DNA from: a virus
IMG/VR virus record: IMGVR_UViG_3300020214_001095
Coordinates: 1-30,473 of that record
Length of the DNA: 30,473 bases
Direction: 5' to 3' (one strand)
Part shown: piece by piece, positions 4,748 through 26,076 of the stretch
Numbering within the stretch: position 1 is the first letter of the stretch
Layout of the letters: each line of letters opens with the position of its first letter
Translations under genes and position numbers: made by a program
Notes under the pieces: model-generated
The model's database searches: none
What the model saw: the letters and a program-made list of their open reading frames with translations, nothing else
Told to the model about the DNA's origin: nothing

Positions 4748-5446
4748 ATGCCGCGTAAACGAACCCAAAAAATATATTTTGGGGAGGAACAAGAAAAAGC
4801 GGTTGTAAGATACTTAGAATCCGAATCCGAAACAGAAAAGAATAAGATATTCAACGAATATTTAAGAGAACCTCTCACAATAATGGTCGAAAGCATAATT
4901 CGACGTTATAAATTATATAGAAAAGATTTTGAATTTGTGGACATACACGCAGATACAATGTCTTTTTTAATGACGAAGATTAATAAATTTGACCATACAA
5001 AAAACCATAAAGCTTATTCTTATTTTGGTACTATTTGTAAAAACTACTTAATGGGTGCAATTCAAAGGGACGCTAAAGAAATGAATCGAAGCGTTTCTTA
5101 CGATGATATCTCATCCGATTTAGAGGAAAGTGCAGAGCATTCTTATTACATTGATGAATATCATATTGATTACAAAGATGTTATAATAAAATTTATAATT
5201 GAATTAGAAACCTTTATAGAGACAGAAGAATTGAATGATAATGAACAGAAAATAGGGTATGCTTTAATTGAGATTTTTAGCAACTTTGAAAAAATATTCC
5301 AAATAGGTGAAGGAAATAAATTCAATAAAAATTTAATTCTATTATCATTAAGAGAAATGACATCATTATCAACAAAAGAAATCAGAATCTCTCTAAAGAG
5401 ATATAAAAAAGTTTACGAAGGAATCATGGTAAGATTCGTAAATTAA
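4748..5446 (+). CDS. gp55-like late-transcription sigma factor
   Basis: A 232-residue protein resembling T4 gp55, the phage sigma factor that directs host RNA polymerase to late promoters. The core 65-110 (ADTMSFLMTKINKFDHTKNH, then YSYFGTICKNYLMGAIQRD) matches sigma region 2 as seen in gp55 homologues, where KFD..K...AYF.T...N.....I.R is the usual pattern. The basic stretch QRDAKEMNRS is followed by an acidic segment (DLEESAEHSYYIDEYHIDY). The C-terminal part has a helix-rich region (LREMTSLSTKEIRISLKRYK) that could be a degenerate helix-turn-helix. The assignment rests on pattern recognition, so a generic sigma-70-family call is the fallback. It lies just before the baseplate genes it may control. 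Confidence 0.72.
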   Translation: MPRKRTQKIYFGEEQEKAVVRYLESESETEKNKIFNEYLREPLTIMVESIIRRYKLYRKDFEFVDIHADTMSFLMTKINKFDHTKNHKAYSYFGTICKNYLMGAIQRDAKEMNRSVSYDDISSDLEESAEHSYYIDEYHIDYKDVIIKFIIELETFIETEELNDNEQKIGYALIEIFSNFEKIFQIGEGNKFNKNLILLSLREMTSLSTKEIRISLKRYKKVYEGIMVRFVN

Positions 5447-5455
5447 CTATTTCTC

Positions 5456-5463
5456 TATTTATA
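5456..5463 (+). promoter_or_regulatory. TATTTATA element before the 5468 gene
   Basis: Exact TATTTATA ending 4 bases before the ATG, at the head of the baseplate gene run. It belongs to the recurrent set discussed in the findings. It may be a late promoter or an AT-rich initiation region. Confidence 0.4.
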
Positions 5464-5467
5464 TATT

Positions 5468-5842
5468 ATGAGGGAAAAGAAAAATATAATATCATTAGAC
5501 ACAGATTCAGCGTTAGCGTTGATGCAAGAAATCTACAACGATATTGTTGAACAAAAAAATACTGCGTCAATGATAACTAAAAAAATGTTAACATTCATGA
5601 AAGACGCTGAGGATATGAGCGTCATTGGTCCCGTCATTAAAGAACAACAAAAAATATTAAACGATTGTACCGAAAAAAAGATTTCATTAGTTAAACTTCA
5701 AGGAGCCTTATTAAAACAAACCCAAGGAAGTGGCCCAAATTCAAGTGGTGGTAAATTACAACTTACTGATGAAGATAGAGTCATATTGGAAAAACTGATG
5801 AATGATACTGAAGGAGAGTCGTCAGGAACATATACAGACTAA
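5468..5842 (+). CDS. Small helical protein of unknown function
   Basis: A 124-residue protein. Residues 10-90 look largely alpha-helical with heptad-like spacing (ALMQEIYNDIVEQKNTASMI, LKQTQ), followed by a Gly/Ser linker (GSGPNSSGGK, 87-96) and an acidic tail. I do not recognise a family; its size and helical core would also fit a small terminase subunit such as T4 gp16, but no diagnostic motif supports that. Its stop overlaps the next ATG by one base (TAATG), so it is translated together with the large virion protein that follows. Confidence 0.65.
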   Translation: MREKKNIISLDTDSALALMQEIYNDIVEQKNTASMITKKMLTFMKDAEDMSVIGPVIKEQQKILNDCTEKKISLVKLQGALLKQTQGSGPNSSGGKLQLTDEDRVILEKLMNDTEGESSGTYTD

Positions 5843-7800
5843 TGGCTAATTCAAAAGAACCCAAAAAAAAACTTCAAGCTTCGATTGAAGCAATAAAAAA
5901 AATTAATGACGACCCAAAGGGTTCATTGGGTTCTATTGCCGACTCTTATCAAAAAAACATACCGGACCCAAACGAGTTATTTTCTAAAAAAAGTGCCGAT
6001 TTAAAAAATAAATTAAAATCTAAGGTAGAAAATAATAAAGACATCTTTAAAGAATTGTTAGAAATTACAGAACAATTCATTACCAGTAACAAAAAAACAA
6101 AAACCGATACTACACCAACAAAAAGTGACAGTGTACCTGTCAATGTTGACAAGAATCTCGTAAAAGGAAAAATAAAACGTTATGCGGTTTCTTCCTCAAA
6201 AACAACTCTAAAATCTGCAAAACAAATTGCAATTAAACATTTTTCAGAAGCTCTTTTTATGGGTGACGGAATTTGTGGTAGTCAGTCCGTTTTTAATATA
6301 GATTCAATAGTCCTAAAACCTGACGAATTTGACTTCTTAGATATTTTTACAATTGACCCCGATTCAGATTGTGGTCAATTAATTTACGAGAAAAAGTCAC
6401 CTGATAAAAACAAACAAAAGGCGAATAGAAAATTTTATGATTTAATGTCTTCAGGAGGTTTATACACTTACTCATCAAACAATGGTAAAAACCTATTTAG
6501 TACCCAATGGAGTGCTTCAACACAACAATTTTTAATTACAGGATTAACTCAAGGTACAACAGGTACAACCAAAGTGCAAGACTTCATCAAAGACTATTAT
6601 GAGTCTTTGGAATTTCCTGATATTGAAGATATCATGAAGACCGCTATGATGTTAACCATACAAGGCGGTTCAAGTTGTAGTGACTCAAGTAAATTTACAG
6701 TATCATTAAATAAATCTCTAAGATTAATTGATAAATTATTCAAAGTATGTGGTTCCAATACTCAAAAAGATGAATTAAAAAATCAGACACCTGTTGATAT
6801 GTTTAGTGAAAACGACCAAGACATTGAATTCTATTTTGATTTCGATGATGTGGAAGGTATTGACTTAGACGATGAACAAAATAGATTTAAAAGAGTATTA
6901 AAGTTTAAAGACTGTTATAATTTTGAAATACCAGTAGACGACATGCATGTGGAGGATTTTATCTACTTAACAAATAATCAGAGCGTAGAGAGTGCGGTAG
7001 ACAACACTTTAGAAAATTTAGCTAAAGATGCTTTATCACAATCAGACTCCTCTTTTGATATTAGCGCATTTTTAAATAACCTATTAAATAATTTCATCAT
7101 CAATTTACCAAAAGCTTTGGTTATGTCGATTTTGTCGGCTAAAATATTCTTACCAATTATAGTATTATATAAAATATTTAAAACAGGTTTAACCAATGTG
7201 TATTTAAACAGTAAAGAATTAGCCAAGAAATTTTACAAGGCTATCGGTGCGATAATTAAAGATTTATTTTGGTTATTCATAAGAGAATTTTATAGATTAA
7301 TAAAAGTAGATTTATTGGCGTTTATCCAAAGTATTGTACAGAGAATTATTAAAAATAAGTACAAAAGGTATCTATTAATTATTACATCGTTAATTGCTTT
7401 ATTGAGGAAAGCTTTAGAGACAGAGATAAATAATTGTTATGATTTATTCCAAACAATACTATCAACAATTGAGGCCGCATTATCACAAAAAGCACCTATA
7501 ACAATACCTTCAATTCTTTTACTATTTTCAGATTCATTACCGGGTTTCAGTCAAGATAGGGCATTTATGAATATCATGAATAAATTAGAAGCGTCAGGTG
7601 TACCTACCGGACCTTTATTTGGTGAATCAAATGACATAGGTAGTTTGGTAAAATCCGTTGTTGATGGGTATACCGAAGAAGAGGATGCAAATTCATTTGT
7701 AAAAATTGTATTGAAAGGTGGAACACTACCCGGTCCACCACTCGCTGGTGGCGCGGTAATACCACCTGGATTTATTACGGGCGTAGGTAAAAAACAATAA
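5842..7800 (+). CDS. Large probable virion protein of unknown function
   Basis: A 652-residue protein. Residues 1-105 are a Lys-rich, low-complexity helical region. The middle (about 105-400) is mixed, with several cysteines and acidic stretches (FYFDFDDVEGIDLDDEQ). Residues 410-560 contain long hydrophobic or amphipathic segments (LPKALVMSILSAKIFLPIIV, YLLIITSLIALL) that could be membrane-active or buried helices. The C-terminus is Gly/Pro-rich (GGTLPGPPLAGGAVIPPGF). It is not recognised. Its size and position directly upstream of the OB-fold baseplate protein suggest a tail or baseplate part, or a tail-delivered membrane protein. No signal peptide is visible. Confidence 0.7.
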   Translation: MANSKEPKKKLQASIEAIKKINDDPKGSLGSIADSYQKNIPDPNELFSKKSADLKNKLKSKVENNKDIFKELLEITEQFITSNKKTKTDTTPTKSDSVPVNVDKNLVKGKIKRYAVSSSKTTLKSAKQIAIKHFSEALFMGDGICGSQSVFNIDSIVLKPDEFDFLDIFTIDPDSDCGQLIYEKKSPDKNKQKANRKFYDLMSSGGLYTYSSNNGKNLFSTQWSASTQQFLITGLTQGTTGTTKVQDFIKDYYESLEFPDIEDIMKTAMMLTIQGGSSCSDSSKFTVSLNKSLRLIDKLFKVCGSNTQKDELKNQTPVDMFSENDQDIEFYFDFDDVEGIDLDDEQNRFKRVLKFKDCYNFEIPVDDMHVEDFIYLTNNQSVESAVDNTLENLAKDALSQSDSSFDISAFLNNLLNNFIINLPKALVMSILSAKIFLPIIVLYKIFKTGLTNVYLNSKELAKKFYKAIGAIIKDLFWLFIREFYRLIKVDLLAFIQSIVQRIIKNKYKRYLLIITSLIALLRKALETEINNCYDLFQTILSTIEAALSQKAPITIPSILLLFSDSLPGFSQDRAFMNIMNKLEASGVPTGPLFGESNDIGSLVKSVVDGYTEEEDANSFVKIVLKGGTLPGPPLAGGAVIPPGFITGVGKKQ

Positions 7801-10969: not shown

Positions 10970-11401
10970 ATGGATAACTTAGAAGGAATTATTAAAAATC
11001 AACTTGACAATTACAAGAATGAAAATATAACTGAAAACTACATGTTTTTCAGTAATCTTAAACAACTTCACAGACAATGTCAAATGTTGTTACAATTAGA
11101 CCCATCTATCGTTGAAGACATTTTACAAAATGGTCATGATTGGGCTGATGACCATGTTGCTGTCGCTAAAGAAAATGTTGACCAAGTTTTTGATTTTATG
11201 ATGAATATAACGAAAGAATCATTAAACGAGGCCAAATCAAATAAACTTTGTGCACGAGGAAAATCAGCAGCAAAATCAAAATTTAAAGTCTATCCAAGCG
11301 CGTACGCTAATGGATATGCGATTCAAGTTTGTAAAGGTAAAATAAAAGGTTTAGATGGGGTAAGAAAGTGCTCGGGGTCATATTGCTCGGGTAAAAAATA
11401 A
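10970..11401 (+). CDS. DUF5872-type protein with a prohead-protease-like site
   Basis: A 143-residue, two-part protein. Residues 1-82 form a helical domain (LKQLHRQCQMLLQLDPSIVE, NGHDWADDHVAVAKENVDQV) that I have seen in other T4-like marine phage proteins. Residues 93-138 form a small basic Cys domain (LCARGKSAAKSKFKVYPSAY, ANGYAIQVCKGKI) that I recognise as DUF5872, also known from giant viruses. Between them is SLNE|A (84-88), which fits the T4 gp21 consensus (L/I)xE|(A/G). I infer a head-internal protein that releases the basic domain on cleavage. An upstream in-frame ATG at 10925 lies inside the previous gene, so I start at 10970. The stop overlaps the next ATG by one base. Confidence 0.75.
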   Translation: MDNLEGIIKNQLDNYKNENITENYMFFSNLKQLHRQCQMLLQLDPSIVEDILQNGHDWADDHVAVAKENVDQVFDFMMNITKESLNEAKSNKLCARGKSAAKSKFKVYPSAYANGYAIQVCKGKIKGLDGVRKCSGSYCSGKK

Positions 11402-12429
11402 TGGATAAAAAAATTGTCTGTCAATGCGGTTGGAATTGGTCTTTATATGATGGTGGAGATGACCCGTATACGTGTCATAAATGTGGTCATGATAATACAG
11501 ATAAGTACACAATGAAGATTTATATTAGTGAAGAAGATTTATCTTATGTAAATGAATCTATTGAATCTGGAGAGGTTTTAAAAGAAGACTTGGCAAGATG
11601 GTTTAAAGAAAAATGGGTTGACGTTTCTCGTAAGATTGACGGTAAACACCCCCCCTGTGGTAGAAAATCGGCTGATGGTGAAGAAGGTAGAAAGGGTTAT
11701 CCAAAATGTAGACCATCAAAAAAAGTATCAAAAGACACTCCAAAAACCGCTGGTAGTTATAGTAAAAAAGAAAAAAAATCTATGACTTCTCAAAAAAGAA
11801 GAGCAGAAAAGAAAGAACCGAAGATAGGCAAGGGTAACAAACCTACAATGACAAAATTTAATGAAAATATGGAAAATATAATTAAATTAGATACAACTAC
11901 AATTCAAAATACAATTAAACATCCAAAATTGGTTACTGAAAATATGGAAATTTCTAACGCTCTCCAATATCATATTATTTATAAAAAATCATTATTAGAA
12001 AATGTATACAAATTAGGTACTGATAATTTTTTTAAATTATTAGAAGAATGTAAAGAACTATATTTGACTGGTCACTTAGATTTATCGGATGAGGATATTA
12101 CATTCATTTATCAAAATGAATACGGCCCAATTGAAGAAACTAATTATGAAATTACAGACCTTTTAAATGAAGCCGAATATCAGGGAAGAAAGGTACAACT
12201 TGGAAAAATTATGCAGGGTGATATTAAGAAATTTAAAGTTTATGTTAAGAATGATAAAGGAAAAGTAGTAAAAGTAAATTTTGGGTTTGGTGGTAAATCT
12301 GCAAAGGGTAAAGTAATGAAAATTAAAAAGAATAATCCCGAAAGAAGAAAATCATTTAGAGCTAGACACAATTGTGATAATCCAGGTCCACGTTGGAAAC
12401 CAAGATATTGGGCTTGTAGAACTTGGTAA
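11401..12429 (+). CDS. Modular Zn-ribbon/basic-domain protein, probable internal head protein
   Basis: 342 residues with at least three parts. (1) A zinc-ribbon-like module, CQC (7-9) and CHKC (25-28). (2) Residues 66-140, a basic module (WFKEKWVDVSRKIDGKHPPC, then GYPKCRPSKK and a Lys/Arg-rich tail) of a type shared by giant viruses and large phages. (3) A C-terminal module 258-342 (KKFKVYVKNDKGKVVKVNFG, then SFRARHNCDNPGPRWKPRYW) that I remember at the C-termini of marine phage head proteins. LLNE|A (254-258) sits exactly at the border of module 3 and fits the gp21 cleavage rule. I infer that protease processing frees a basic peptide inside the capsid. Its stop directly abuts the stop of the opposing dCMP deaminase gene. 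Confidence 0.75.
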   Translation: MDKKIVCQCGWNWSLYDGGDDPYTCHKCGHDNTDKYTMKIYISEEDLSYVNESIESGEVLKEDLARWFKEKWVDVSRKIDGKHPPCGRKSADGEEGRKGYPKCRPSKKVSKDTPKTAGSYSKKEKKSMTSQKRRAEKKEPKIGKGNKPTMTKFNENMENIIKLDTTTIQNTIKHPKLVTENMEISNALQYHIIYKKSLLENVYKLGTDNFFKLLEECKELYLTGHLDLSDEDITFIYQNEYGPIEETNYEITDLLNEAEYQGRKVQLGKIMQGDIKKFKVYVKNDKGKVVKVNFGFGGKSAKGKVMKIKKNNPERRKSFRARHNCDNPGPRWKPRYWACRTW

Positions 12430-13296: not shown

Positions 13297-15060
13297 TTAT
13301 CTCAAGGTGTCAAGACTAAATGTAGACAAACCACTTACGTTTACCACACCAAAATAACGGTTGTTAACCATTTTCTTAGCGTATCTGGTCATAATACCTT
13401 TGATTGGTGTAAAGTTGAATGGATTGTACATTGTAGGTGTTAATTGTAATGGAACGTATGGTGCGTAAATATAACCAGCGTCCAACAATGATTTACCTTT
13501 GTGACCGATAACAACCTTACCAGCTGGTAAGTATGGGTCACGGTACACTTGATAACGACCTGCTAAAGAACCGATTTTCTCGATACCCATGTTATATTGG
13601 TCTTGCTCAGGAGCCGCGTTTGAAACGTGGAAGTATTCCAAGTCGTCAAATACTGCAGATACCTCAGAAGATACAACAATCCAGTTAGCCCCACCTCTTA
13701 AGGTAGTTTTATGGATTTGAGCTGAGATTTGGTTAATTTTGGTAACCAATGTTTGGTTCCAGTCTTTTTGAGTGTAACCAGCGAATGATGAACCATCGTT
13801 ACCGTATCTCCATTCGTTGTAGTCCCACTTAGATGTCCAAGCGGCACCTTTACGAATGTCACGAAGGATTTCACGGTCGATTTCTGCTGCGATTTGCTCA
13901 GACAATAAAGCTGTCAATTCAGCTTCAGCATCGATGTTGTGGAATGCACTTACGTCTTGTGCTAATTCAGGAGACCAGCTAGCTCTCAATTTTCTTTCAG
14001 TTACAGAAACTGTTACTGACTCAAGGTCGAAAGATACTTCACCGATTTCTTCTTCGAATTCTAATGAACTATATTCTCTCCAACTTACCTTAATGTCACT
14101 CGCCGCTAATGATGAACCAGCAACTGTGTAATCTGTAAAACCTGTTGTTACACCGTTGTACTTTTGTAAGTCGATAGATAAGTAAATAACTCCATCAGCG
14201 TCACAAACGTTTGTGAATTTACCTGTTCTACCACTGTCTTTAGAACCGTACTCTACAATGCCTTTACCGTATTTTTGAGTTACTACGCTGAAAGGAATAT
14301 TAGCGGCTGCAGTAGCACCTAAGTGAGTATATAACGAACTATCAAGACCTGATAAAGTGTAAACAGTTAATGATGCTAAGAACTCTTCAGTATCCATGAC
14401 ATGACCATTAGGGCCGGAAAGTTTACTAGCACCTTCGTAAGTTGTAAAACCTGAAATTTTAGCAATTACACTTGATACTGTGTTACCTGTAGCAATAGCC
14501 GCTTGAGTTGAAGCTACGCCGTTACTAAATGTAACAAATTCAATTGTTGAGCCAGTAATTGTTGCAAAAGTACCTTTTGAGTAGTCAAACAAACCAGAAT
14601 CAACTGAATCACTCGCTTCGTAGAAACGGTCATACAAGTTGTTACCAGTGTAACCAACGGCTGGGTCGGTATCGGTTGTGTTTGGGAAACCGAATGGTTG
14701 ACGGTGTGCGTTTGCCGATGTTCTATCTTGAATTTTAGGTACAAAGTAGAACAATTTACCGATAGGTAAGTTCATTGCTTGTACGGATACGATGTCGTTC
14801 GCTAACAATTTAGAGAAAACACGACGGATAATAGGGAATACTACAGTTTCAAATGAACCTGAAGCATCGGCTACAGCCGCTTCGTTGATTAGGTATGAAG
14901 CTTGGTTTTCATACAATTGTGCGATGTTGTCTTTTTGGTGACCGTTAAGACCCTCAAGGAATCCTAAGTCATCCCATTTTTTAATGGTATCTTCTTTGAT
15001 AACACGGAGGTGTTTTAATCCAATGTTACCAACCATACCAGATTCTAATAATGCTCCCAT
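13297..15060 (-). CDS. 23: Major capsid protein, T4 gp23 family
   Basis: Forms the hexameric shell of the head. Recognisable gp23 blocks are DIVSVQAMNLPIGKLFYF near residue 90, ERKLRASWSPELAQDVSAFH then NIDAEAELTALLSEQIAAEI near the middle, and a C-terminal PYVPLQLTPTMYNPFNFTPI block followed by KGIMTRYAKKMVNNRYFG. The N-terminal 60 residues end in LINE|A, which fits the gp21 cleavage rule and the position of the T4 cut (about residue 65), so the mature protein should begin at Ala61. At 587 residues it is longer than T4 gp23 (521); the extra length is in a Thr/Ser/Gly-rich part at about 150-320, probably a surface insertion. A strong terminator follows, as expected for a highly expressed gene. 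Confidence 0.96.
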   Translation of the reverse strand: MGALLESGMVGNIGLKHLRVIKEDTIKKWDDLGFLEGLNGHQKDNIAQLYENQASYLINEAAVADASGSFETVVFPIIRRVFSKLLANDIVSVQAMNLPIGKLFYFVPKIQDRTSANAHRQPFGFPNTTDTDPAVGYTGNNLYDRFYEASDSVDSGLFDYSKGTFATITGSTIEFVTFSNGVASTQAAIATGNTVSSVIAKISGFTTYEGASKLSGPNGHVMDTEEFLASLTVYTLSGLDSSLYTHLGATAAANIPFSVVTQKYGKGIVEYGSKDSGRTGKFTNVCDADGVIYLSIDLQKYNGVTTGFTDYTVAGSSLAASDIKVSWREYSSLEFEEEIGEVSFDLESVTVSVTERKLRASWSPELAQDVSAFHNIDAEAELTALLSEQIAAEIDREILRDIRKGAAWTSKWDYNEWRYGNDGSSFAGYTQKDWNQTLVTKINQISAQIHKTTLRGGANWIVVSSEVSAVFDDLEYFHVSNAAPEQDQYNMGIEKIGSLAGRYQVYRDPYLPAGKVVIGHKGKSLLDAGYIYAPYVPLQLTPTMYNPFNFTPIKGIMTRYAKKMVNNRYFGVVNVSGLSTFSLDTLR

Positions 15061-15087: not shown

Positions 15088-16422
15088 TTATTTTATTTTT
15101 GCCATTAAATCTTTCATTCTTCTGAATTGTGGATTCTCATATGCTTTTGATTCCGACAATACTTTTGAAGAAGAAGATGTTTGTGACGTTGTTATTTTAT
15201 CAACCACTGATTCAGTTACAGGTTTTTTTGTATCTAATTCAGTTTTTATAGAACTATATAAGTTCTTAGACTCTTTCAAGGTTGAGATTGAATCGAATCT
15301 TTTTAAGATGTTTAACTTCTCTTGTTTGGTGGTCGAGTGTTCAGTAAACAAACGGGTAGCGTAAGCCAAGTTAGCGTTGAATACAGCAACTTCATTTAAC
15401 TTTTCTTTGAATAAGACTAAAGCCTTTTTATATTCATCGTTTTGTTTTTTGAGTTTACTAACTTCTTCGTTGATTGAACCCGAACCAGCTTTATATTTTG
15501 TTTTGCCTTTAATACCGGCTCTATTCATACCACCTTTATCTCCGTGAAGATTTGATGTAGTTCTTGATGCTTCATCAACGTCACCCATCTTGGGGTCTTG
15601 GTCTTCGTCATCTTCGCACATCTTTTCGTCCTCGTACATCTTGGGGTCTATTTCATATTCGCACAACTCGTCGTCCTCGGGCATCATCATAGGGTCCATC
15701 ATGTCTTCATCAACATCATCAAGTTCGATTTCGTAAACTGTTTGTTCAGAATCATCCATCATTTCTTTCAATTCATTTGAATATTCCGACTCATAACCCA
15801 TGCCCATGTCTTCATCATCCATTTCCATGTCTTCATCATCCATTTCCATGTCTTCATCATCCATTTCCATGTCTTCATCATCCATTTCCATGTCTTCATC
15901 ATCCATTTCCATGTCTGCACCTAACTTAATGATATACTCGTCATCACCATCAGACAATTCGATGTGGTCATCATCTTTCTTAACGATTACTCCATCTTCA
16001 GGACTCATTGCTTTAAAAACTTTTAAAATTTCGTCTTCGTCAGCACCAGTCATATCAACCACATCGTCATCATCCATGTCTCCAAAGTCGTTCATGTTAT
16101 CCATGTCGCCAAAGTCGTCATCAGATGAATCTTTTGAGTCGATGTCTTTAGATAGTTCATCAGATGAGTTGTCATCATCTTCGTCTGATTTATCGTCCCC
16201 AGTGTTATCGTCAGCACCTGCTGATACATCGTCTGCGGGGTCTTCTTCAGGATTAGGTTGTTCTTTAACAACTTTTTCCTCATCTTCCATGGATTCTTTC
16301 AACAAATCGCCGATTTCTTGTTTCATAGTTGAAGCAAGTATACCTTTTGCGTTTGCCCTTACCGCCTCCTCAAGGGTCTGTACTTGAAGCAATGCTTGTT
16401 CTAGAATGGATTTTTCGCTCAT
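15088..16422 (-). CDS. 22: Prohead core scaffold, gp22-like, very acidic with tandem repeats
   Basis: Lies directly upstream of gp23 and downstream of gp21, the T4 position of the scaffold gp22. The N-terminus (1-45) and the C-terminus (about 320-444) are helical and charged, as in gp22 relatives. Between them is a long Asp/Glu/Met-rich region (about 50-290), including five tandem DMEMDDE units. Candidate gp21 sites are LLKE|S (40-44) and VLSE|S near the C-terminus, consistent with scaffold destruction during maturation. The assignment rests on synteny and composition rather than on catalytic motifs. The acidic part is unusually large, which might mimic DNA or bind the basic internal proteins. 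An open Ser-rich frame on the other strand is a composition shadow. Confidence 0.8.
   Translation of the reverse strand: MSEKSILEQALLQVQTLEEAVRANAKGILASTMKQEIGDLLKESMEDEEKVVKEQPNPEEDPADDVSAGADDNTGDDKSDEDDDNSSDELSKDIDSKDSSDDDFGDMDNMNDFGDMDDDDVVDMTGADEDEILKVFKAMSPEDGVIVKKDDDHIELSDGDDEYIIKLGADMEMDDEDMEMDDEDMEMDDEDMEMDDEDMEMDDEDMGMGYESEYSNELKEMMDDSEQTVYEIELDDVDEDMMDPMMMPEDDELCEYEIDPKMYEDEKMCEDDEDQDPKMGDVDEASRTTSNLHGDKGGMNRAGIKGKTKYKAGSGSINEEVSKLKKQNDEYKKALVLFKEKLNEVAVFNANLAYATRLFTEHSTTKQEKLNILKRFDSISTLKESKNLYSSIKTELDTKKPVTESVVDKITTSQTSSSSKVLSESKAYENPQFRRMKDLMAKIK
15805..15909 (-). repeat. Five tandem copies of a 21-base in-frame repeat within gp22
   Basis: Copies start at 15805, 15826, 15847, 15868 and 15889, with a partial sixth at 15910. 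They are identical at base level and encode a seven-residue acidic Met/Asp unit. Identity without synonymous changes implies recent expansion. Confidence 0.95.
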
Positions 16423-16502: not shown

Positions 16503-17186
16503 TTATTTACCTAAATAACTATCCAACTTTGACATCAAATTTTTCATTCTATTTGAGTCTGATGGATTTTCTTGAATTGATTCTTGATATTGGTCCCTGT
16601 CTTTTAAGTCTGAGAATACATATGCACCTGGTGTACTTGGGGATGACACTAAATCAAAACACACTAATTCAAAATCTTCTTGAACAATGTTTTGACCTTT
16701 AATATTTTTTAAAGAACCAACACCTCTTGATGATATACCAAGTGTTGCACCATTCATTAATAACATGGCAGCTTGGTCACCTTTAGTACTAACTATTCCC
16801 ATTTTTTTCCAAGCGGGAGAAGTAAATAATTTTATTTTACCCATAAGGATTTTACCATCCCACCATGTTTCTAAAATCGAATGTGAAACTCTGTCTAAAT
16901 CTATTAGTGAAGATGTTGGGTGATTTAGTTCGTTTAATGCACCACCTTTATTTATAATAGATTGATATTTTTCATTTTCTCTCTTAAGAATGTCTTCAGG
17001 GTAGATTCTACCATTTTTATTTGGTGTATCATATTTTTGTAAAACAGCGTAAAGGACCACATCATCAGAATAGTCCACATCTTTCATTTCAGAAATAATT
17101 TTCTGATTTTCTTTTGGTGATATATAACCAGCGTCGTATTCTATTAGTATACCTTTACCGGTTTCATTTGGGCCGAGTATTTTCAT
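16503..17186 (-). CDS. 21: Prohead core protease, T4 gp21 family
   Basis: A serine protease of the herpesvirus-assemblin-like fold that cleaves scaffold, capsid and internal proteins after (L/I)xE during head maturation. The motifs are NKNGRIYP (56-63), ELNHP with His89 (86-90), and LGISSRGVG with the catalytic Ser at 152 or 153 (149-157). DFELVCFDLVSSPSTPGA (171-188) is the conserved strand after the active site. At 227 residues it is close to T4 gp21 (212). It sits between the two unassigned genes and gp22, as in T4. The C-terminal tail (about 195-227) is polar and probably autocleaved. Confidence 0.94.
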   Translation of the reverse strand: MKILGPNETGKGILIEYDAGYISPKENQKIISEMKDVDYSDDVVLYAVLQKYDTPNKNGRIYPEDILKRENEKYQSIINKGGALNELNHPTSSLIDLDRVSHSILETWWDGKILMGKIKLFTSPAWKKMGIVSTKGDQAAMLLMNGATLGISSRGVGSLKNIKGQNIVQEDFELVCFDLVSSPSTPGAYVFSDLKDRDQYQESIQENPSDSNRMKNLMSKLDSYLGK

Positions 17187-17742: not shown

Positions 17743-17943
17743 ATGATAATCGTAAACGTCAACAAAGAAAAAAACCTTGAATCAGCATTAAAAAAATACA
17801 AATACAAGGTTCAAAAAACTAAACAAATCGAAAAACTTAGAAAAAAACAAGAATATGTTAAACCATCGGTTGAAAAAAGAGATAAAAAATTAAAGGCGAT
17901 TTATAAGCAGCAATTGTTTACCGATAAAGAAAAATCAAATTAA
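17743..17943 (+). CDS. rpsU: Ribosomal protein bS21, phage-encoded, Bacteroidota type
   Basis: 66 residues matching bS21 over their whole length: MIIVNVNKEKNLESALKKYK at the start, the basic second helix (KVQKTKQIEKLRKKQEYVKP), then PSVEKRDKKLKAIYKQQLF. bS21 sits on the 30S platform near the anti-Shine-Dalgarno end of 16S rRNA. Tyr54, reported as important for hiding the anti-Shine-Dalgarno in Flavobacterium ribosomes, is present (KAIY). I infer that the phage copy replaces or tops up the host protein and biases initiation toward phage messages. It is the only plus-strand gene within a long minus-strand block. The last 9 bases overlap the convergent gene. The leader is A-rich without GGAGG. 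Confidence 0.93.
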   Translation: MIIVNVNKEKNLESALKKYKYKVQKTKQIEKLRKKQEYVKPSVEKRDKKLKAIYKQQLFTDKEKSN

Positions 17944-18675
17944 ACCATTTTTTAATTCAATTAGTTTATAGTAATTGAATTTTGAAATTTCCGATTTTTC
18001 AACTTCTAATTTTACATTAGTAAGTTTACTAACTACAGAATCTTCAGTAGATTCTTTTAATAGTGAATCTAATTTGTTATTAAGTTCTTTTTTTACAGAG
18101 TTCATTTCATTAATCAATTCCTCATCAGTCATTGATACAATCTTATTGAAAGTTTCTTTTTGTTCCTCATTCAAAAAATCACTATACTTAATATTAAAAT
18201 TATTTACCAACACCGCATTCAATAAAGAATGATTTTCTATTTGAACTGAAGGTTTTTCAAAAATTTCTTTTTTCTTTTCTTGAATCAAATGAAATATTAA
18301 GTTTTCTCTAGCGTCAATCTTAGATGCGATATTGTGCATATTGGTTTCCTCCGAAAGAATATCCAAATCGTTATAAAGTAAATTTGATTCCGCTACAACG
18401 CCTTTGATTGATTTATCAAACTCTTTTATTTCTTTTTTCAAAGATTTAGTTTTTTCTACTAAAATAGGTTCAATAGATTCCACATATAATTTGGCTTTAT
18501 CTTTTGATGAAATGTTCAAGTTTTCAATATTTTCATAAAACATATACATTTCAGATAAAGATTTATTTGATTTTAGTTTATTTACTAAATCTTTAATTTC
18601 ACCTTTATTATTAGAGGCGTAAGATTCGGTAAGTTTTGTTAATAGTTTTATTTTTAATTTACCAAAGTTTGTCAT
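17935..18675 (-). CDS. Coiled-coil protein next to the portal gene
   Basis: A 246-residue protein, nearly all helical and charged, with likely coiled coils around 70-100 (EKTKSLKKEIKEFDKSIKGV) and 165-215 (DEELINEMNSVKKELNNKLD). I do not recognise a family. It begins 5 bases after the portal stop, so it is translated with it. By position it parallels T4 gp67, a prohead core protein next to gp20, although T4 gp67 is far smaller. A head-core or portal-associated role is inferred from place and composition only. LLKE|S near residue 207 is a weak candidate for gp21 cleavage. Confidence 0.65.
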   Translation of the reverse strand: MTNFGKLKIKLLTKLTESYASNNKGEIKDLVNKLKSNKSLSEMYMFYENIENLNISSKDKAKLYVESIEPILVEKTKSLKKEIKEFDKSIKGVVAESNLLYNDLDILSEETNMHNIASKIDARENLIFHLIQEKKKEIFEKPSVQIENHSLLNAVLVNNFNIKYSDFLNEEQKETFNKIVSMTDEELINEMNSVKKELNNKLDSLLKESTEDSVVSKLTNVKLEVEKSEISKFNYYKLIELKNGLI

Positions 18676-18680
18676 TTTTG

Positions 18681-20495
18681 TTATTCGTTTAAGAAGTTTT
18701 TAAGTTTATTTTCTATTTCATAAATATTATCTTGAGCTTTATTCATATCAAACAAATCTTCTAATTTGTCATTTTCGTTCAACATACTCAATATATTGTG
18801 TTTTTTTGTTTCGTTCTCACTCAAAGGAGCGTCTCCACCCCCCGCTGGTGGCGGTGGTGGTGGGGTACCTCCGCCCGTACCCATATTCATACCGCCAGCA
18901 TCGCCGCCAGCCGCATCTCCACCTTCTTGTCTTTCCTCTTCGGGAACCCCATATTTTGAATCAACATCATCAAATACACCACTTCGTTTGATAACGTTTT
19001 GTGTGTTAGTTAATTCGAAACCAATTGCTCTTTCAATTCTTTGTTGTTGTAAATCAAGAATCACTTCACTGTCACTCATACCAAGAATATTTTTCTTAGC
19101 CCAAGTATGTGAAACAGGTAGGATTCCAATTTGAGATTGGTCAGATGTTGCATCTTTATACAATACAATTTTTTCTTTCCATTGTTCAATTCTCAACAAA
19201 TCAGATTGTGCTGACGGGTTTGTTAATGATAATGTGAAATTATCTAATTCATCTTCCAAACCCAATAAGTAAAGATGAATTAATGCTATTTTATTTAATT
19301 CTTGAATTACCGATTTTTGAATTCTGTTGATTGTTCTTGCAAAACGAATATCCATCAACGCGAGAGTTTTACCGTCACCAACAACTTCTTCAAAACCTAA
19401 GAAAGCTTTTGGAATACGAAGTGCCGCCAACATTTTCTTTTGGATATATTCAATGTCGGCAATTTCACCTAAGTTTTGTGCCCCTGCTAATGTTTCAATA
19501 GGATTTGTTTGAGCTGGGTCACGAACAGGGATGAAATAATCTTGGTCAACCGCCATTTGATTATATCTCATATCAACTTGACCGTTTCTTGAATCAACCA
19601 CTTGGTCTCTTTTAAATTTATTAGCCACACGTTGTACATAAGCCTCGATGTCTTTGTCATCCATGTTACCAACAAATATTTTAAAAACCCTTCTTTCAGG
19701 TGCTCTTGTTGTTCTATAAATCAACATAGCATCCTCTGCTAAAAGTAATTGTTTCCAAATTCTTCTAATTTTATCCAACATAGAGGTACCATAAGGAAGT
19801 TTTCTATCATCACCCAATAATCTAAAATGGGCTATTTCCCAAGCTTGAAATTCTAAATCTTTATTTTTCCATTGAAATCTTAACTCTCTTGTTGGAAGTT
19901 GCATTGAGTTTTGTTGATTTGGTGTTTTGCTTTCTTTACCTTCATGTCTTTCAATTTCAATATTAGGTAATTGTTGACACCCAATAATACCTCTTTCAGG
20001 GTCTATTTTAAGGTAAACAAAGTTATCGCCGTACTTACAAGTACCCCTTGTCCACATTTGTAAGTTAGTGTTCAAATCTAACCTATTCATAAACAAATCA
20101 TCAAGAATAATTTTGACTCTTGATGATTCTGAAAAAATAGTTAATATTTCACCTTTTTCAGATAATGTTGTTGATTCTTCGGCGTATATATCTAAAGCGG
20201 CAGAAATTTCAGGAGTAAATTCCATCGATTCATAATCGTAATATGCTGACAACCTATTTGGTTCGTAATATACCGATTGATTATAAAGAGATTGGTCAAG
20301 TTTTGTCCACTTGTCTGCAATGTATTGACTCTGCTGAGCTTGTAGCATCGATTTTTCATACTCCTCCCTACTATTTGTTTTTAGTATTTGTTCTTTATCA
20401 AAATTGAAAGACGGAGCCTCCTCAGGAGTTACCCTACCAGGGAACCCAAACATTTTTGTTAATCTCTGAAATACCGTTAAATTACTTTCCGCCAT
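18681..20495 (-). CDS. 20: Portal protein, T4 gp20 family
   Basis: Dodecameric portal at the head vertex; starts prohead assembly and is the channel and docking site for the terminase. Recognisable gp20 blocks include FTPEISAALDIYAEESTT near residue 95, YRTTRAPERRVFKIFVGNMD near 260, DQDYFIPVRDPAQTNPIETL near 315 and GKTLALMDIRFARTINRIQK near 370. The C-terminal 90 residues include a Gly/Pro-rich linker (GGGTPPPPPPAGGG) and an acidic helical tail, which is extra relative to T4 gp20 (524 residues). It lies 52 bases after gp17, with no gp18 or gp19 between, unlike T4. Confidence 0.95.
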   Translation of the reverse strand: MAESNLTVFQRLTKMFGFPGRVTPEEAPSFNFDKEQILKTNSREEYEKSMLQAQQSQYIADKWTKLDQSLYNQSVYYEPNRLSAYYDYESMEFTPEISAALDIYAEESTTLSEKGEILTIFSESSRVKIILDDLFMNRLDLNTNLQMWTRGTCKYGDNFVYLKIDPERGIIGCQQLPNIEIERHEGKESKTPNQQNSMQLPTRELRFQWKNKDLEFQAWEIAHFRLLGDDRKLPYGTSMLDKIRRIWKQLLLAEDAMLIYRTTRAPERRVFKIFVGNMDDKDIEAYVQRVANKFKRDQVVDSRNGQVDMRYNQMAVDQDYFIPVRDPAQTNPIETLAGAQNLGEIADIEYIQKKMLAALRIPKAFLGFEEVVGDGKTLALMDIRFARTINRIQKSVIQELNKIALIHLYLLGLEDELDNFTLSLTNPSAQSDLLRIEQWKEKIVLYKDATSDQSQIGILPVSHTWAKKNILGMSDSEVILDLQQQRIERAIGFELTNTQNVIKRSGVFDDVDSKYGVPEEERQEGGDAAGGDAGGMNMGTGGGTPPPPPPAGGGDAPLSENETKKHNILSMLNENDKLEDLFDMNKAQDNIYEIENKLKNFLNE

Positions 20496-22369: not shown

Positions 22370-23812
22370 TTATACTATGGGACCTTGTGGGTCATCATCG
22401 TCATCTGTTAATCGTATACCAAGACCACCCAAGAAGTTTCCCAAATCATCATCATCTGTTTTATCTGTGATTCGTTCCAATTCTTGGTTAAATCTATTAA
22501 TTGCGTCATTGTAATTTTTATCTCTTAACATTTGACCGATACCTTGAAGTAGTACCCCCATCAATCTTTTACCTTCACCAGAACCTGAAACAACTTCTTT
22601 TGTGAATACTAAAAATTCTTTCGCCGGTAATCTAAAGATACTGGTAACTAGGTAATTTTGAAGATAATATGATTCTTCTTCATTAAAAATTTCATCAGGG
22701 AATTGTTGTCTGATTCTATCATAAATTGCTGGTCCTAATCTTAAATCCCATACCTCTTTTTCTAACGTATCTTCTGATTGTTCAATTTCAGCGAATCTTG
22801 GGTCTTCTTTACCTTCATCATCTTTTGGTCTTCCTTGTATACCAAATAACTCATATGTACCTTTAATTAATTCGTGCACTAAAATTGGGAAATTTACCGC
22901 TTCTACATAAACTGTTGGTGGTGTTGTACTACGTTTTACTTGTTCTTTTCCACCCATACCAGCACCTCCCATCATACCTTTCATTTGGTTATCACTTAAT
23001 TGCCAGTATAATGTATCATTTATTGACATTAAAATACCGTAGTTAGCAACCAAATTGTTAGAACCTGTAATTTCAGCAAGTTTGTCCGCAACATACGAAT
23101 ACATGTAGTGACCCTTTTTAGAGACACCTTGTATCATTGCGTTAATCATTCTTCTTTTAGCTCTTTCAAAATCCATTTTTTCCAAATCAGTGGCTAAGTC
23201 TTTTTCAACATCAACAGGGTCAATATTTTGTTGTTGTTGCATTTCTCGATTGAAACCCTCAGGATTTACTTGACCTTGACCGACAAGTTTTGCATCATAT
23301 TGTATTTTGTACTTTTTACTACCATCTGGTAATCTATAAAAAACTTTATAAATTCCATTATCGAATTCAATTCCACCATTATCACCCTCACTTAAAGTTG
23401 ATTTTTCCTTTCTACTTAAAACAGGAATTTCATCAACAGCCAACCTAATACCTAACGCAATCAATTCCGGTCTATGATTTTCTTCTGCTTGTACAATTTC
23501 ATTATGTGCAGTCATCATCATTTGTACCAACGGCATTATCCCACTCTCATCATCTGTTAATCTAACGTTTGAACCAGTAAGTTCCCTCAATCTTGCAACA
23601 ACTTGTCTGTATCTTTCAGATGCTAATAATTCTTGGAAATTTTTATTTGGTTCATCACCCGTTTTGGGTAGAGGGACTTTTTTAAGTGGAGTATCACCCG
23701 TAGAAAGAGTTCTCTGTATGTCTATGTTCGGTCTATCTTCCGAATCAAAATCCATTGGCATTTCGTTTATATCTTCCAGTAAAGATACTAAATCTTTTTT
23801 CTTGAATTTCAT
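22370..23812 (-). CDS. Probable virion-associated protein, unknown function
   Basis: A 480-residue, mostly helical protein with an acidic N-terminal stretch, several Gln/Met-rich patches (MQQQQNIDPVDVEKDL, GMMGGAGMGG) and an Asp-rich C-terminus. I do not recognise a domain or catalytic motif. It is the last gene of a tight operon with three smaller genes (4-base ATGA overlap with the one before it), all upstream of gp17. Its own terminator follows at once. A role in head assembly is inferred from the neighbours only. Confidence 0.7.
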   Translation of the reverse strand: MKFKKKDLVSLLEDINEMPMDFDSEDRPNIDIQRTLSTGDTPLKKVPLPKTGDEPNKNFQELLASERYRQVVARLRELTGSNVRLTDDESGIMPLVQMMMTAHNEIVQAEENHRPELIALGIRLAVDEIPVLSRKEKSTLSEGDNGGIEFDNGIYKVFYRLPDGSKKYKIQYDAKLVGQGQVNPEGFNREMQQQQNIDPVDVEKDLATDLEKMDFERAKRRMINAMIQGVSKKGHYMYSYVADKLAEITGSNNLVANYGILMSINDTLYWQLSDNQMKGMMGGAGMGGKEQVKRSTTPPTVYVEAVNFPILVHELIKGTYELFGIQGRPKDDEGKEDPRFAEIEQSEDTLEKEVWDLRLGPAIYDRIRQQFPDEIFNEEESYYLQNYLVTSIFRLPAKEFLVFTKEVVSGSGEGKRLMGVLLQGIGQMLRDKNYNDAINRFNQELERITDKTDDDDLGNFLGGLGIRLTDDDDDPQGPIV

Positions 23813-24615
23813 TTTTTAATTTTTTTCTTTTCGGCTAACGCCTTTGGTTTAGTATCAGGACCTGGTTGTGGTTCAAACGGGTCAAACGGTTCGTCTTCTT
23901 GTGGTCTTGTTGGTGTTTTTGGTTTGGTTGGTGTTTCTGTTGGTGTTTCAACAGGTGCTGGTTGGGCTGCAGCCATGATTGCATCATAAGTCATAAACTC
24001 AGGTACACCATTGTGACCTTTTTTCGCTCTTGTTGCCGGCATTGGTTGAAACGTCGCTTCCATTTTTTCACTAATAATATTCATGATGTCATTTTTAGAT
24101 GTAAAATTACTGTATTTTGATTCAGTCAAATCTAACACCCATTCTTCAACTTCTGAAACACTTTCGTTCATTTTTTTCTTCCAACCTTGTTTTGCTCTAA
24201 TAGCAAATTTTATTTCGGCTTCTTGGTCTATAATTTTTTTAGGTACTTTTTTACCTTCGTCTTGATATTTCTTACTTTTTTCTTTTAAAGAATTAAGTTC
24301 TTTTTTTAGTTCTACAACTGACTTACCAGCGTGTTCACCGGTTTTTTTAACCTTGGTATCACCCTCCCATTTTTCATTTACACCCCCATGTTTTTTGTCC
24401 TTACATTTAGGACATACTTTAGATTCGTAAGTTTCAATGGTTTTACCATCGGCTTTAGCTGCTTCGATATCTTTTAAATTATTCGCTTTAATCATAACAG
24501 CTTCTTTAAGAACTGTTTTAGATAAAGTTATAAGTTCGTTATCACTTAAACGAGAAAGAGTTCTCTCTGAAAACCCTTCCATTATTAATTCTTCAATGAC
24601 TAATCTTCTATTCAT
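23809..24615 (-). CDS. Basic-domain protein, probable internal head protein
   Basis: A 268-residue protein. The N-terminus (1-45) is helical and ends in VLKE|A (35-39), fitting the gp21 cleavage rule, as does LIME|G (10-14). A CPKC motif (68-71) with basic surroundings suggests half a metal site. Residues 85-145 (GKSVVELKKELNSLKEKSKK, then EIKFAIRAKQGWKKKM) form a basic helical module that I remember from other phage and giant-virus proteins. The C-terminal 70 residues are Pro/Thr-rich and disordered. It overlaps both neighbours by 4 bases. A DNA-binding head-internal role is inferred. Confidence 0.68.
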   Translation of the reverse strand: MNRRLVIEELIMEGFSERTLSRLSDNELITLSKTVLKEAVMIKANNLKDIEAAKADGKTIETYESKVCPKCKDKKHGGVNEKWEGDTKVKKTGEHAGKSVVELKKELNSLKEKSKKYQDEGKKVPKKIIDQEAEIKFAIRAKQGWKKKMNESVSEVEEWVLDLTESKYSNFTSKNDIMNIISEKMEATFQPMPATRAKKGHNGVPEFMTYDAIMAAAQPAPVETPTETPTKPKTPTRPQEDEPFDPFEPQPGPDTKPKALAEKKKIKK

Positions 24616-25014: not shown

Positions 25015-26076
25015 TTACTTAAAGTATTTACCTAAAGTATTAGATATTGTTTTGTTAATTTCTTTTTTGATTTCGTCCAAATCGATTTCCTTAACATCAT
25101 CACCACCTAAATCAGCGTATTTTGATAAATCAATTTCTTCTTCCGTTGACATTGGTGTGTTTATAAAACTTTCCAATTTGTCCATTGCGTGCATTTCACC
25201 TAAATCAGCGTCAGCAGTTGGTTCAGCTGGTGTAGTATCGTCATCAGCAGGAACGTCAGACATATCATCAGATGGTTCGTCAGATAACTCTACATCATCC
25301 TCAATATCCCTATCGAATTTTTTACCAATCTCTTCGATATCATCATCCTCCAACTTATCTAAATCTACTGCCGAAATAACCATGTTAAGGACATATTTGA
25401 TATCGTCACTTTCCATTTTATCTTTTTGGTCTCTTAGTTCTTGTCCTAATTTTCCTGCAAATTTTTGGATTTCAGTCATATAGTCAGATGGTTTACCTGA
25501 TTCATCAGATGGTAAATCATCACCCATTTCGTCCCCTTCAGGTGCCATTGGAGTATTACTTTCGGGAGCCATTGGGACATCACTTTCGGGAGCCATTGGG
25601 ACATCACCACCCATTTCAGGTGATGGTGGTACGTCACCCTCAGGAGCTACGGGAGCTGGCGGAACCTCACCCATTTCTGGTGATGAAACAGGAGCTTCGT
25701 TAGCGGGTTCTGAAGTTGGTTTTTGTTTTAAAACGTACTTAGTTGCTTCATTTAATTCACGTCCAGATAATAACTCTAATCTTTTTAGTGCTTCCGCATA
25801 TGAATTAAATTTATTTTTATTTTTCATGAATAGACCACCGATGTAGTCTAATGAATTTTCGTTTAAACCTTTTTTAACGTAGTATCCATCTTTTTCTCTT
25901 ACAATACCAAATCTGAAACCACTTACGGATTCAGAAAGATATTCAGTTTTAGATACTGGTGATTGGTTAGGGGTAGATGATTTTTTATCATTACCGTAAT
26001 AGGTCAACTCGAGGATACGTCTTAGTTTGTCGTCTCCGTTAAGTTTTTCGCTTCCTAATGGTTTTAAATCTGCCAT
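25015..26076 (-). CDS. Acidic, Pro-rich probable head protein with octapeptide repeats
   Basis: A 353-residue protein. The N-terminal domain (50-110) is folded (GFRFGIVREKDGYYVKKGLN, then SYAEALKRLELLSGRELNE). It ends in ELNE|A (107-111), another match to the gp21 rule, directly before a long Pro/Glu/Met linker with MAPES-type repeats (about 140-180). The second half is very acidic, with a helical segment (EIQKFAGKLGQELRDQKDKM) and a C-terminal helix. The layout of folded N-terminus, cleavage site and acidic tail suggests a prohead core substrate. I do not recognise the family. A TATTTATA element lies 37 bases upstream. Confidence 0.68.
   Translation of the reverse strand: MADLKPLGSEKLNGDDKLRRILELTYYGNDKKSSTPNQSPVSKTEYLSESVSGFRFGIVREKDGYYVKKGLNENSLDYIGGLFMKNKNKFNSYAEALKRLELLSGRELNEATKYVLKQKPTSEPANEAPVSSPEMGEVPPAPVAPEGDVPPSPEMGGDVPMAPESDVPMAPESNTPMAPEGDEMGDDLPSDESGKPSDYMTEIQKFAGKLGQELRDQKDKMESDDIKYVLNMVISAVDLDKLEDDDIEEIGKKFDRDIEDDVELSDEPSDDMSDVPADDDTTPAEPTADADLGEMHAMDKLESFINTPMSTEEEIDLSKYADLGGDDVKEIDLDEIKKEINKTISNTLGKYFK
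25537..25608 (-). repeat. Three tandem 24-base units in the acidic head protein gene
   Basis: Units begin at 25537, 25561 and 25585. The second and third differ only in the last base, while the first has diverged. They encode an eight-residue Pro-Met-Ala-Pro-Glu unit. A variable spacer length is likely between related phages. Confidence 0.85.

Follow-up and report, generated by a model that had tools for sequence, protein, structure and literature searches.

Small basic modules behind conserved prohead-protease-type sites in two adjacent proteins of a T4-like phage

We analysed a 30,473-nucleotide stretch of viral DNA (the window), a 30.5-kb IMG/VR record (IMGVR_UViG_3300020214_001095) of a T4-like phage in which gp23, gp21 (Peptidase_S77) and gp20 were identified by Pfam and PHROGs, and followed up two adjacent genes for proteins of 143 and 342 residues, here called P1 and P2, which are also present on a 170.9-kb IMG/VR contig. 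Judging from sequence comparison, it is quite probable that P1 and P2 are substrates of the gp21-type prohead protease, that P2 is a polyprotein, and that basic modules are released from both inside the head. A preliminary description of the window had proposed such a coordinated set of gp21 substrates; the proposal is well supported by the comparison, but its domain label was partly wrong and one site had been overlooked. The support comes from site conservation and placement, free-standing equivalents of the modules, T4-type peptides joined directly to modules, and alternating charge. The features concerned are as follows.

10970..11401, plus strand: P1, 143 residues, acidic helical N-terminal part and basic, Cys-containing module M1 (phrog_27331 at residues 91-125; AlphaFold; charge)
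11228..11233, plus strand: predicted gp21 site SLNE|A, P1 residues 87/88 (alignment conservation; low-confidence break in the AlphaFold model)
11231..11398, plus strand: module M1, phrog_27331, a variant of which resembles the first part of DUF5872 (PHROGs; free-standing genes in other phages)
11401..12429, plus strand: P2, 342 residues, putative polyprotein (Pfam; PHROGs; charge)
11584..11589, plus strand: predicted gp21 site VLKE|D, P2 residues 62/63 (conservation in relatives; linker counts)
11587..11844, plus strand: module M2, DUF5872, PF19197 positions 53-115 (Pfam)
12169..12174, plus strand: predicted gp21 site LLNE|A, P2 residues 257/258 (conservation in relatives; linker counts)
12172..12426, plus strand: module M3, phrog_7595, FRARHNCDNPGP type (PHROGs)

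P1 and P2 would be precursors of internal head proteins that enter the prohead core, where their acidic N-terminal parts may hold them, by analogy with the capsid-targeting peptides of T4. During maturation gp21 would cut after (L/I/V)-x-E and free M1 from P1, and M2 and M3 from P2, the small polyprotein. The freed basic modules would then stay with the DNA in the head.

Module borders and site conservation in P1 and P2

The charge of both chains switches from acidic to basic at each predicted cut: from -10 (P1 residues 1-87) to +13 (M1, 88-143), from -7 (P2 residues 1-62) to +17 (the DUF5872 part, 63-148, whose border at residue 148 was our choice), and from -11 (an acidic spacer, 149-257) to +20 (M3, 258-342). 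The parts behind the cuts are basic and contain Cys, as had been described. Among relatives in which the module is fused and preceded by a site, the downstream part is the more basic one in 136 of 141 M1 rows and in all 162 M3 rows. A stretch FNE|N near the border of the DUF5872 part and the acidic spacer does not fit L/I-x-E. The start of P2 (window 11401-11586) has an extra zinc-ribbon-like stretch, CQCGWNW..CHKCGHDN, also found in the relatives L013, L019, L022 and L030; in many other relatives P2 begins later, shortly before the DUF5872 part. A relative of the P1 N-terminal part was seen at 142116-142328 of LR756502.1, a 642-kb uncultured phage record.

The preliminary description had given the DUF5872 label to P1. 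Pfam places the domain in P2, at residues 61-138 (E 3.8e-13; 50.5 bits against a curated cut-off of 27.5), where the match spans only positions 53-115 of the 116 in PF19197, and P1 had no DUF5872 match above the curated cut-off, its module being phrog_27331. The label was nevertheless not without basis, as variants of the P1 module in relatives match positions 1-38 or 1-51 of the model (E 5e-4 to 0.014, below cut-off). The PF19197 model thus appears to combine in a single domain two modules that the window has in two adjacent proteins. No embedded peptidase or enzymatic domain matched P1 or P2 above the Pfam cut-off, and an SDH_protease match in P1 (12.6 bits against a cut-off of 31.3) was judged to be chance.

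The AlphaFold model of P1 has a predicted local distance difference test score (pLDDT) of 73, and its sole stretch below 50 before residue 130 is residues 87-89, at the predicted cut. The P2 model was poor (pLDDT 53.8), so that no fold is claimed for P2. Foldseek with the P1 model returned six matches, all with E above 5. Sequence searches of solved structures returned none for M1 and M2; two matches for M3 (E 0.016 and 0.38) were judged to be chance.

Both sites of the preliminary description, SLNE|A in P1 and LLNE|A in P2, are present; the site that it missed, in listing one per protein, is VLKE|D before the DUF5872 part of P2. Relatives were taken from IMG/VR scans, in which 80 loci were kept per query out of 584 (P1) and 591 (P2) matches. 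When the window was aligned with 33 P1 relatives picked by hand, all 34 rows had E at residue 87 despite differing linker length, linker sequence and sometimes downstream module, the sites including SLNE|A, ELHE|G, DIQE|G, EMTE|G, NLSE|A and QIDE|S among those listed. In a broader alignment, of 120 non-redundant P1 hits, the fraction with E at this residue was only 0.28, which counts against the site; we put this down to misalignment, and since that alignment mixed free-standing and other forms we relied on the 34 rows and on border counts. In P2, E is found at residue 62 in 0.87 of 82 relatives and at residue 257 in 0.96 of 98. Many of the P2 relatives listed have V-[LI]-x-E|D ahead of DUF5872 and L-x-E|A ahead of M3, with a variable residue just before the E (the P2 position of the site), and the P3 residue of sites in relatives may also be V or M. 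The sites are kept where the upstream partner is replaced. Cultured relatives in which the M3 protein has the site are Pelagibacter phage HTVC008M, a Methylophilales phage Melnitz and a Flavobacterium phage immuto. The site before DUF5872 says less than the others because its P1' residue (the residue after the cut) is Asp and the upstream sequence is itself conserved.

The preliminary description had also pointed to comparison with chance, and the outcome differed between motif counts and module borders. Raw counting over window proteins was unconvincing (one motif against 0.33 in shuffled sequences for P1, two against 0.69 for P2) and we rejected it as evidence. At the borders of homologues the motif stood well above chance, preceding M1 in 27 of 27 non-redundant linkers (shuffled mean 6.9, maximum 15), M2 in 22 of 31 (mean 1.6, maximum 7) and M3 in 57 of 71 (mean 8.1, maximum 17), in figures to be read with the reservation that motif set and distance windows were fixed after sequence inspection and that linkers share ancestry, so that shuffles overstate their independence. 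These counts used 1000 shuffles, a non-redundancy limit of less than 60% identity over 25 residues, and rows with a score above 40 and at least 25 upstream residues; the distance window for M1 was wider (3-16 residues). Among the 22 matching M2 linkers, three (L224, L233 and L244) have KEGG-type borders, come from loci of the free-standing scan, and are probably chance. We take the signal in these sequences to be the conservation and placement of the sites, not the motif count. In L104, L123, L124 and L168 we also observed more small modules (CWxGYKxVG..VPNCVP and SPAQQAAIAINMKKKG) behind LxE-like sites in short chains.

Free-standing modules and T4-type leaders

One or more of the modules occur as small separate genes in Prochlorococcus phage P-SCSP2, Pelagibacter phages HTVC106P, HTVC023P and Kolga, and Roseobacter phage CRP-902. 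M2 of P-SCSP2 and HTVC023P and M3 of Kolga and CRP-902 start, after Met, at the window's P1' residue; the M2 start of HTVC106P is longer. Over all loci, the commonest Met likewise puts the next residue at P1' for M2 (76 of the 108 free-standing cases) and for M3 (9 of 18), and in free-standing M1 it lies two residues before the core (104 of 112), while the E of the site in fused M1 is mostly seven or eight residues before the core. The claim that the sites stand exactly before the modules is thus right for both P2 modules, but the P1 cut lies three residues farther from the core than the free-standing start in these phages, and six to seven in most relatives.

In a census of modules from 408 sources, the motif was scored in a 12-residue window, so that DUF5872 insert variants were counted as siteless. 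Free-standing modules lacked the motif in 110 of 112 cases for M1, 100 of 108 for M2 and 18 of 18 for M3, whereas fused modules had it within 12 residues in 141 of 149, 101 of 171 and 162 of 175, respectively. Among the fused M2 counted as siteless are insert variants carrying LxE|DLAVWF, and also fusions whose border is SGG or RGG, the latter in loci where Peptidase_S77 (hereafter S77) was not seen; one M1 row without motif (L387, 16.9 bits) probably holds no module. Both M1 and M2 are present in 88 of 140 loci with a free-standing module, and their starts are 119-316 bp apart in the closest 60 of 104 same-strand pairs. In P-SCSP2 the two genes sit between those for scaffold and capsid. The modules look like mobile building blocks, which elsewhere are separate genes already beginning at or near the cut.

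T4 ipII and ipIII begin with MKTYQEFIAE|A (NC_000866), and a similar short capsid-targeting peptide is found on the modules of some relatives. In contig L307, nothing but MKTYREFVTE|A stands before M3, and nothing but MVTFKQYITE|E before M1; M3 follows MFTFKQYILE|A in L294, where S77 was found, and MLRFKEWLAE|A in L284. The window's P1 and P2 have longer acidic N-terminal parts instead. In L295 the three modules are encoded by neighbouring genes, M2 and M3 each having a short leader, and in its relative L298 a single frame holds M2 and M3, which meet at KMTE|A. Both contigs have S77.

Contig L307 also encodes (5346-6563) a kinase-like protein with Zeta_toxin and AAA_33 matches behind the T4-type leader MKSFDQFLTE|G, so that enzymes may be packaged too. 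In L296 (2314-2574) a DUF5824 match stands behind MKFLDYIAE|D, similar to the T4-type leaders.

Other head proteins, the protease and alternative readings

The genes of the window that bear on a common maturation pathway are as follows.

13297..15060, minus strand: gp23 major capsid protein, LINE|A at residues 60/61 (14878-14883) (Pfam; conservation)
15088..16422, minus strand: acidic protein encoded between gp21 and gp23, called gp22-like from its position alone (LxE|S conserved at 43, 384, 404 and 424)
16503..17186, minus strand: gp21-type prohead protease, Peptidase_S77 (Pfam; PHROGs; comparison with T4 gp21)
17935..18675, minus strand: 246-residue protein encoded between portal and protease (LxE|S conserved at 17 and 208)
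18681..20495, minus strand: gp20 portal protein, Portal_T4 (Pfam; PHROGs)
23809..24615, minus strand: 268-residue basic protein, LIME|G (13), VLKE|A (38) and DLTE|S (165) (site conservation)
25015..26076, minus strand: 353-residue acidic protein, YLSE|S (49) and ELNE|A (110) (site conservation)

The preliminary description had listed sites of the same type in three of these proteins, and all three are conserved in relatives: LINE|A of gp23 (E in a fraction of 1.00 of 40), ELNE|A at 110/111 of the 353-residue protein (E in 39 of 39, followed by A in all) and VLKE|A at 38/39 of the 268-residue protein (0.91 of 45). Further conserved sites are YLSE|S of the 353-residue protein (E in 38 of 38), LIME|G (0.98 of 45) and DLTE|S (0.89 of 46) of the 268-residue protein, the four sites of the gp22-like protein (1.00 of 56-61), and sites 17 (0.95 of 43) and 208 (0.89 of 44) of the 246-residue protein. 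The gp22-like protein had no Pfam or PHROGs family match better than E 0.02; a 195-residue reading frame antisense to its acidic MEMDDED repeats (window 15800-16387, plus strand) is probably a by-product of the repeats. A common N-terminal peptide of about MKxIIKLTESDLxxLVKKVLxE, ending in LxE, was observed in the 268-residue protein and in proteins of the gp21-bearing loci L061, L063, L064, L093, L123 and L140, and is a candidate targeting peptide of this clade.

The nearby protease, as described earlier, is a clear Peptidase_S77 match (E 1.1e-21) with 32% identity to T4 gp21, NHP and SSRG being common to both. Whole-contig searches found S77 in 13 contigs of a first set of 50 and in 4 of a second set of 30. 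The comparison with M3 covers 78 of these 80 contigs, L372 and L381 being left out as they came from another scan. All 17 M3 contigs with S77 have the site, and the 14 in which M3 is neither free-standing nor preceded by the site are all without an S77 match; the S77-negative contigs also include 44 with the site and three with free-standing M3. This test of site against S77 (Fisher p 0.03) is a weak one because most contigs are fragments. T4 portal and S77 occur together in 12 of the 50 contigs searched for both, and each alone in one more. In L301, L306, L312-L314, L316, L317, L319, L323, L324 and L329, M3 is fused to other stretches with a GSE, ASE, AAE or AAK border and no LxE; neither S77 nor T4 portal was found in these contigs, four of which (L301, L313, L316 and L324) are 101 to 157 kb long.

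What the modules would do in the head is less certain than their release. Binding of, or travel with, packaged DNA is the most likely role, which we favour because of the charge of the modules and the breadth of their occurrence. They may also be released as proposed but serve as injected anti-host or early-infection proteins, a reading that we hold to be a real though lesser possibility. An excerpt of PMC3012670 gives the precedent of T4 IPI*, an injected inhibitor of a host restriction enzyme, and the shuffling of module content between relatives also speaks for it; yet the mature modules are strongly basic, have conserved cores across several phage types and, for DUF5872, are listed for the algal virus CpV-BQ1 as PF19197 in an excerpt of PMC12085832, which suggests a general and not a host-specific role. 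More speculatively, M1, M2 and M3 might be a set of DNA-binding modules that are packaged in virions and move between viruses. They would form a 'histone-like' kit of T4-like and other tailed phages and, for DUF5872, of an algal virus, which T4-like phages would deliver as polyproteins released by the prohead protease.

Several observations weigh against cleavage by gp21. No S77 was matched in 44 of the 61 site-bearing M3 contigs, which we assume to be mostly fragments, nor in L307 (14 kb) and L284 (28 kb), the bearers of the clearest T4-type leaders; nor was it matched in any of 50 larger contigs of the free-standing M1 and M2 scans, where the family was found nowhere, controls included, so that absence is not shown. 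Counted over whole genomes, T4-type leaders show no clear excess (in the L294 contig 3 of 216 genes against 0.83 in shuffled sequences, in the window's phage 3 of 172 against 0.84, and in a contig lacking an S77 match 0 of 191 against 0.56), which makes this count weak evidence. The motif is also conserved where no cut would be expected. Of the 19 motif matches in window proteins not expected in the head (whose roles, such as GT1, sigma, PhoH, ClpB, gp17 and deaminase, we presume from sequence), 17 have E in 0-0.72 of relatives, but at GT1 61 and at 397 of a 457-residue protein it is found in all; the match at gp20 254, inside the portal domain, is fully conserved; and T4 gp17, which we take not to be a gp21 substrate, contains HPLNE|A. 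Motif conservation is thus strong but not unique evidence.

Such matches, and the fact that conserved borders need not be cut, would fit an LxE stretch that stays uncut and serves as a structural linker or helix cap where domains meet. We consider this unlikely, as LxE is dispensed with in free-standing modules and, in contigs without S77, in some fusions (GSE|YQG and SGG|L borders), is kept when the upstream partner is replaced, and ends the T4-type leader in L307 and L294. That P1 and P2 are instead late tail or cytoplasmic proteins, cut by another protease or by none, is very improbable: their genes come past that for gp23 and are on the other strand from the head genes (with a gene that we presume from sequence to encode a deaminase and a 117-residue reading frame between) and follow those for 519- and 457-residue proteins, but the site type fits gp21, T4-type capsid-targeting leaders occur on the same modules, and the free-standing genes of P-SCSP2 have a head-gene neighbourhood.

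Significance and comparison with known systems

Internal head proteins show little conservation and are difficult to study. The module borders proposed here can be read from free-standing homologues, which are stand-alone genes in other phages, so that the predicted cutting points give precise, cheap and directly testable predictions of new virion N-termini. Release by gp21 would suggest that prohead proteolysis serves the delivery of several small modules from one chain, and it proposes a virion-interior role for modules of DUF5872 and perhaps DUF5824. The literature searched, with most subscription papers outside it, held neither proteomics nor a published account of these modules, and no described role for DUF5872 or DUF5824 modules was found there beyond one table entry; for DUF5872 this agrees with the preliminary description.

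In kind, P1 and P2 seem to belong with the already known T4 internal proteins (IPs); the modules, the polyprotein form and their spread seem to be new. Like IPI, IPII and IPIII, they have sites of the L/I-x-E type after which T4 gp21 cuts (excerpt of PMC9026906, which also describes the IPs as poorly conserved among T4-related phages) and basic mature modules predicted to stay in the head; a targeting peptide nearly identical to the T4 leader is found on some relatives of the modules. Unlike the IPs, they have N-terminal parts as long as 62-87 residues, there are two modules in P2, and in other phage types the modules also exist as separate genes. Several prohead-protease cuts per chain are likewise described, in excerpts of PMC9026906 and PMC10052503, for T4 core proteins and for ejection proteins of the giant phages SPN3US and phiKZ; in SPN3US, according to the same excerpts, N-terminal propeptides are removed and the cut falls after AXE. 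The polyvalent proteins of Iyer et al. 2017 (excerpt of PMC5512222) also combine several domains in one chain that is delivered with the DNA and split by proteolysis. They differ in being multidomain proteins with enzymatic domains and an embedded peptidase, whereas P1 and P2 would carry small basic modules released by a separate prohead protease.
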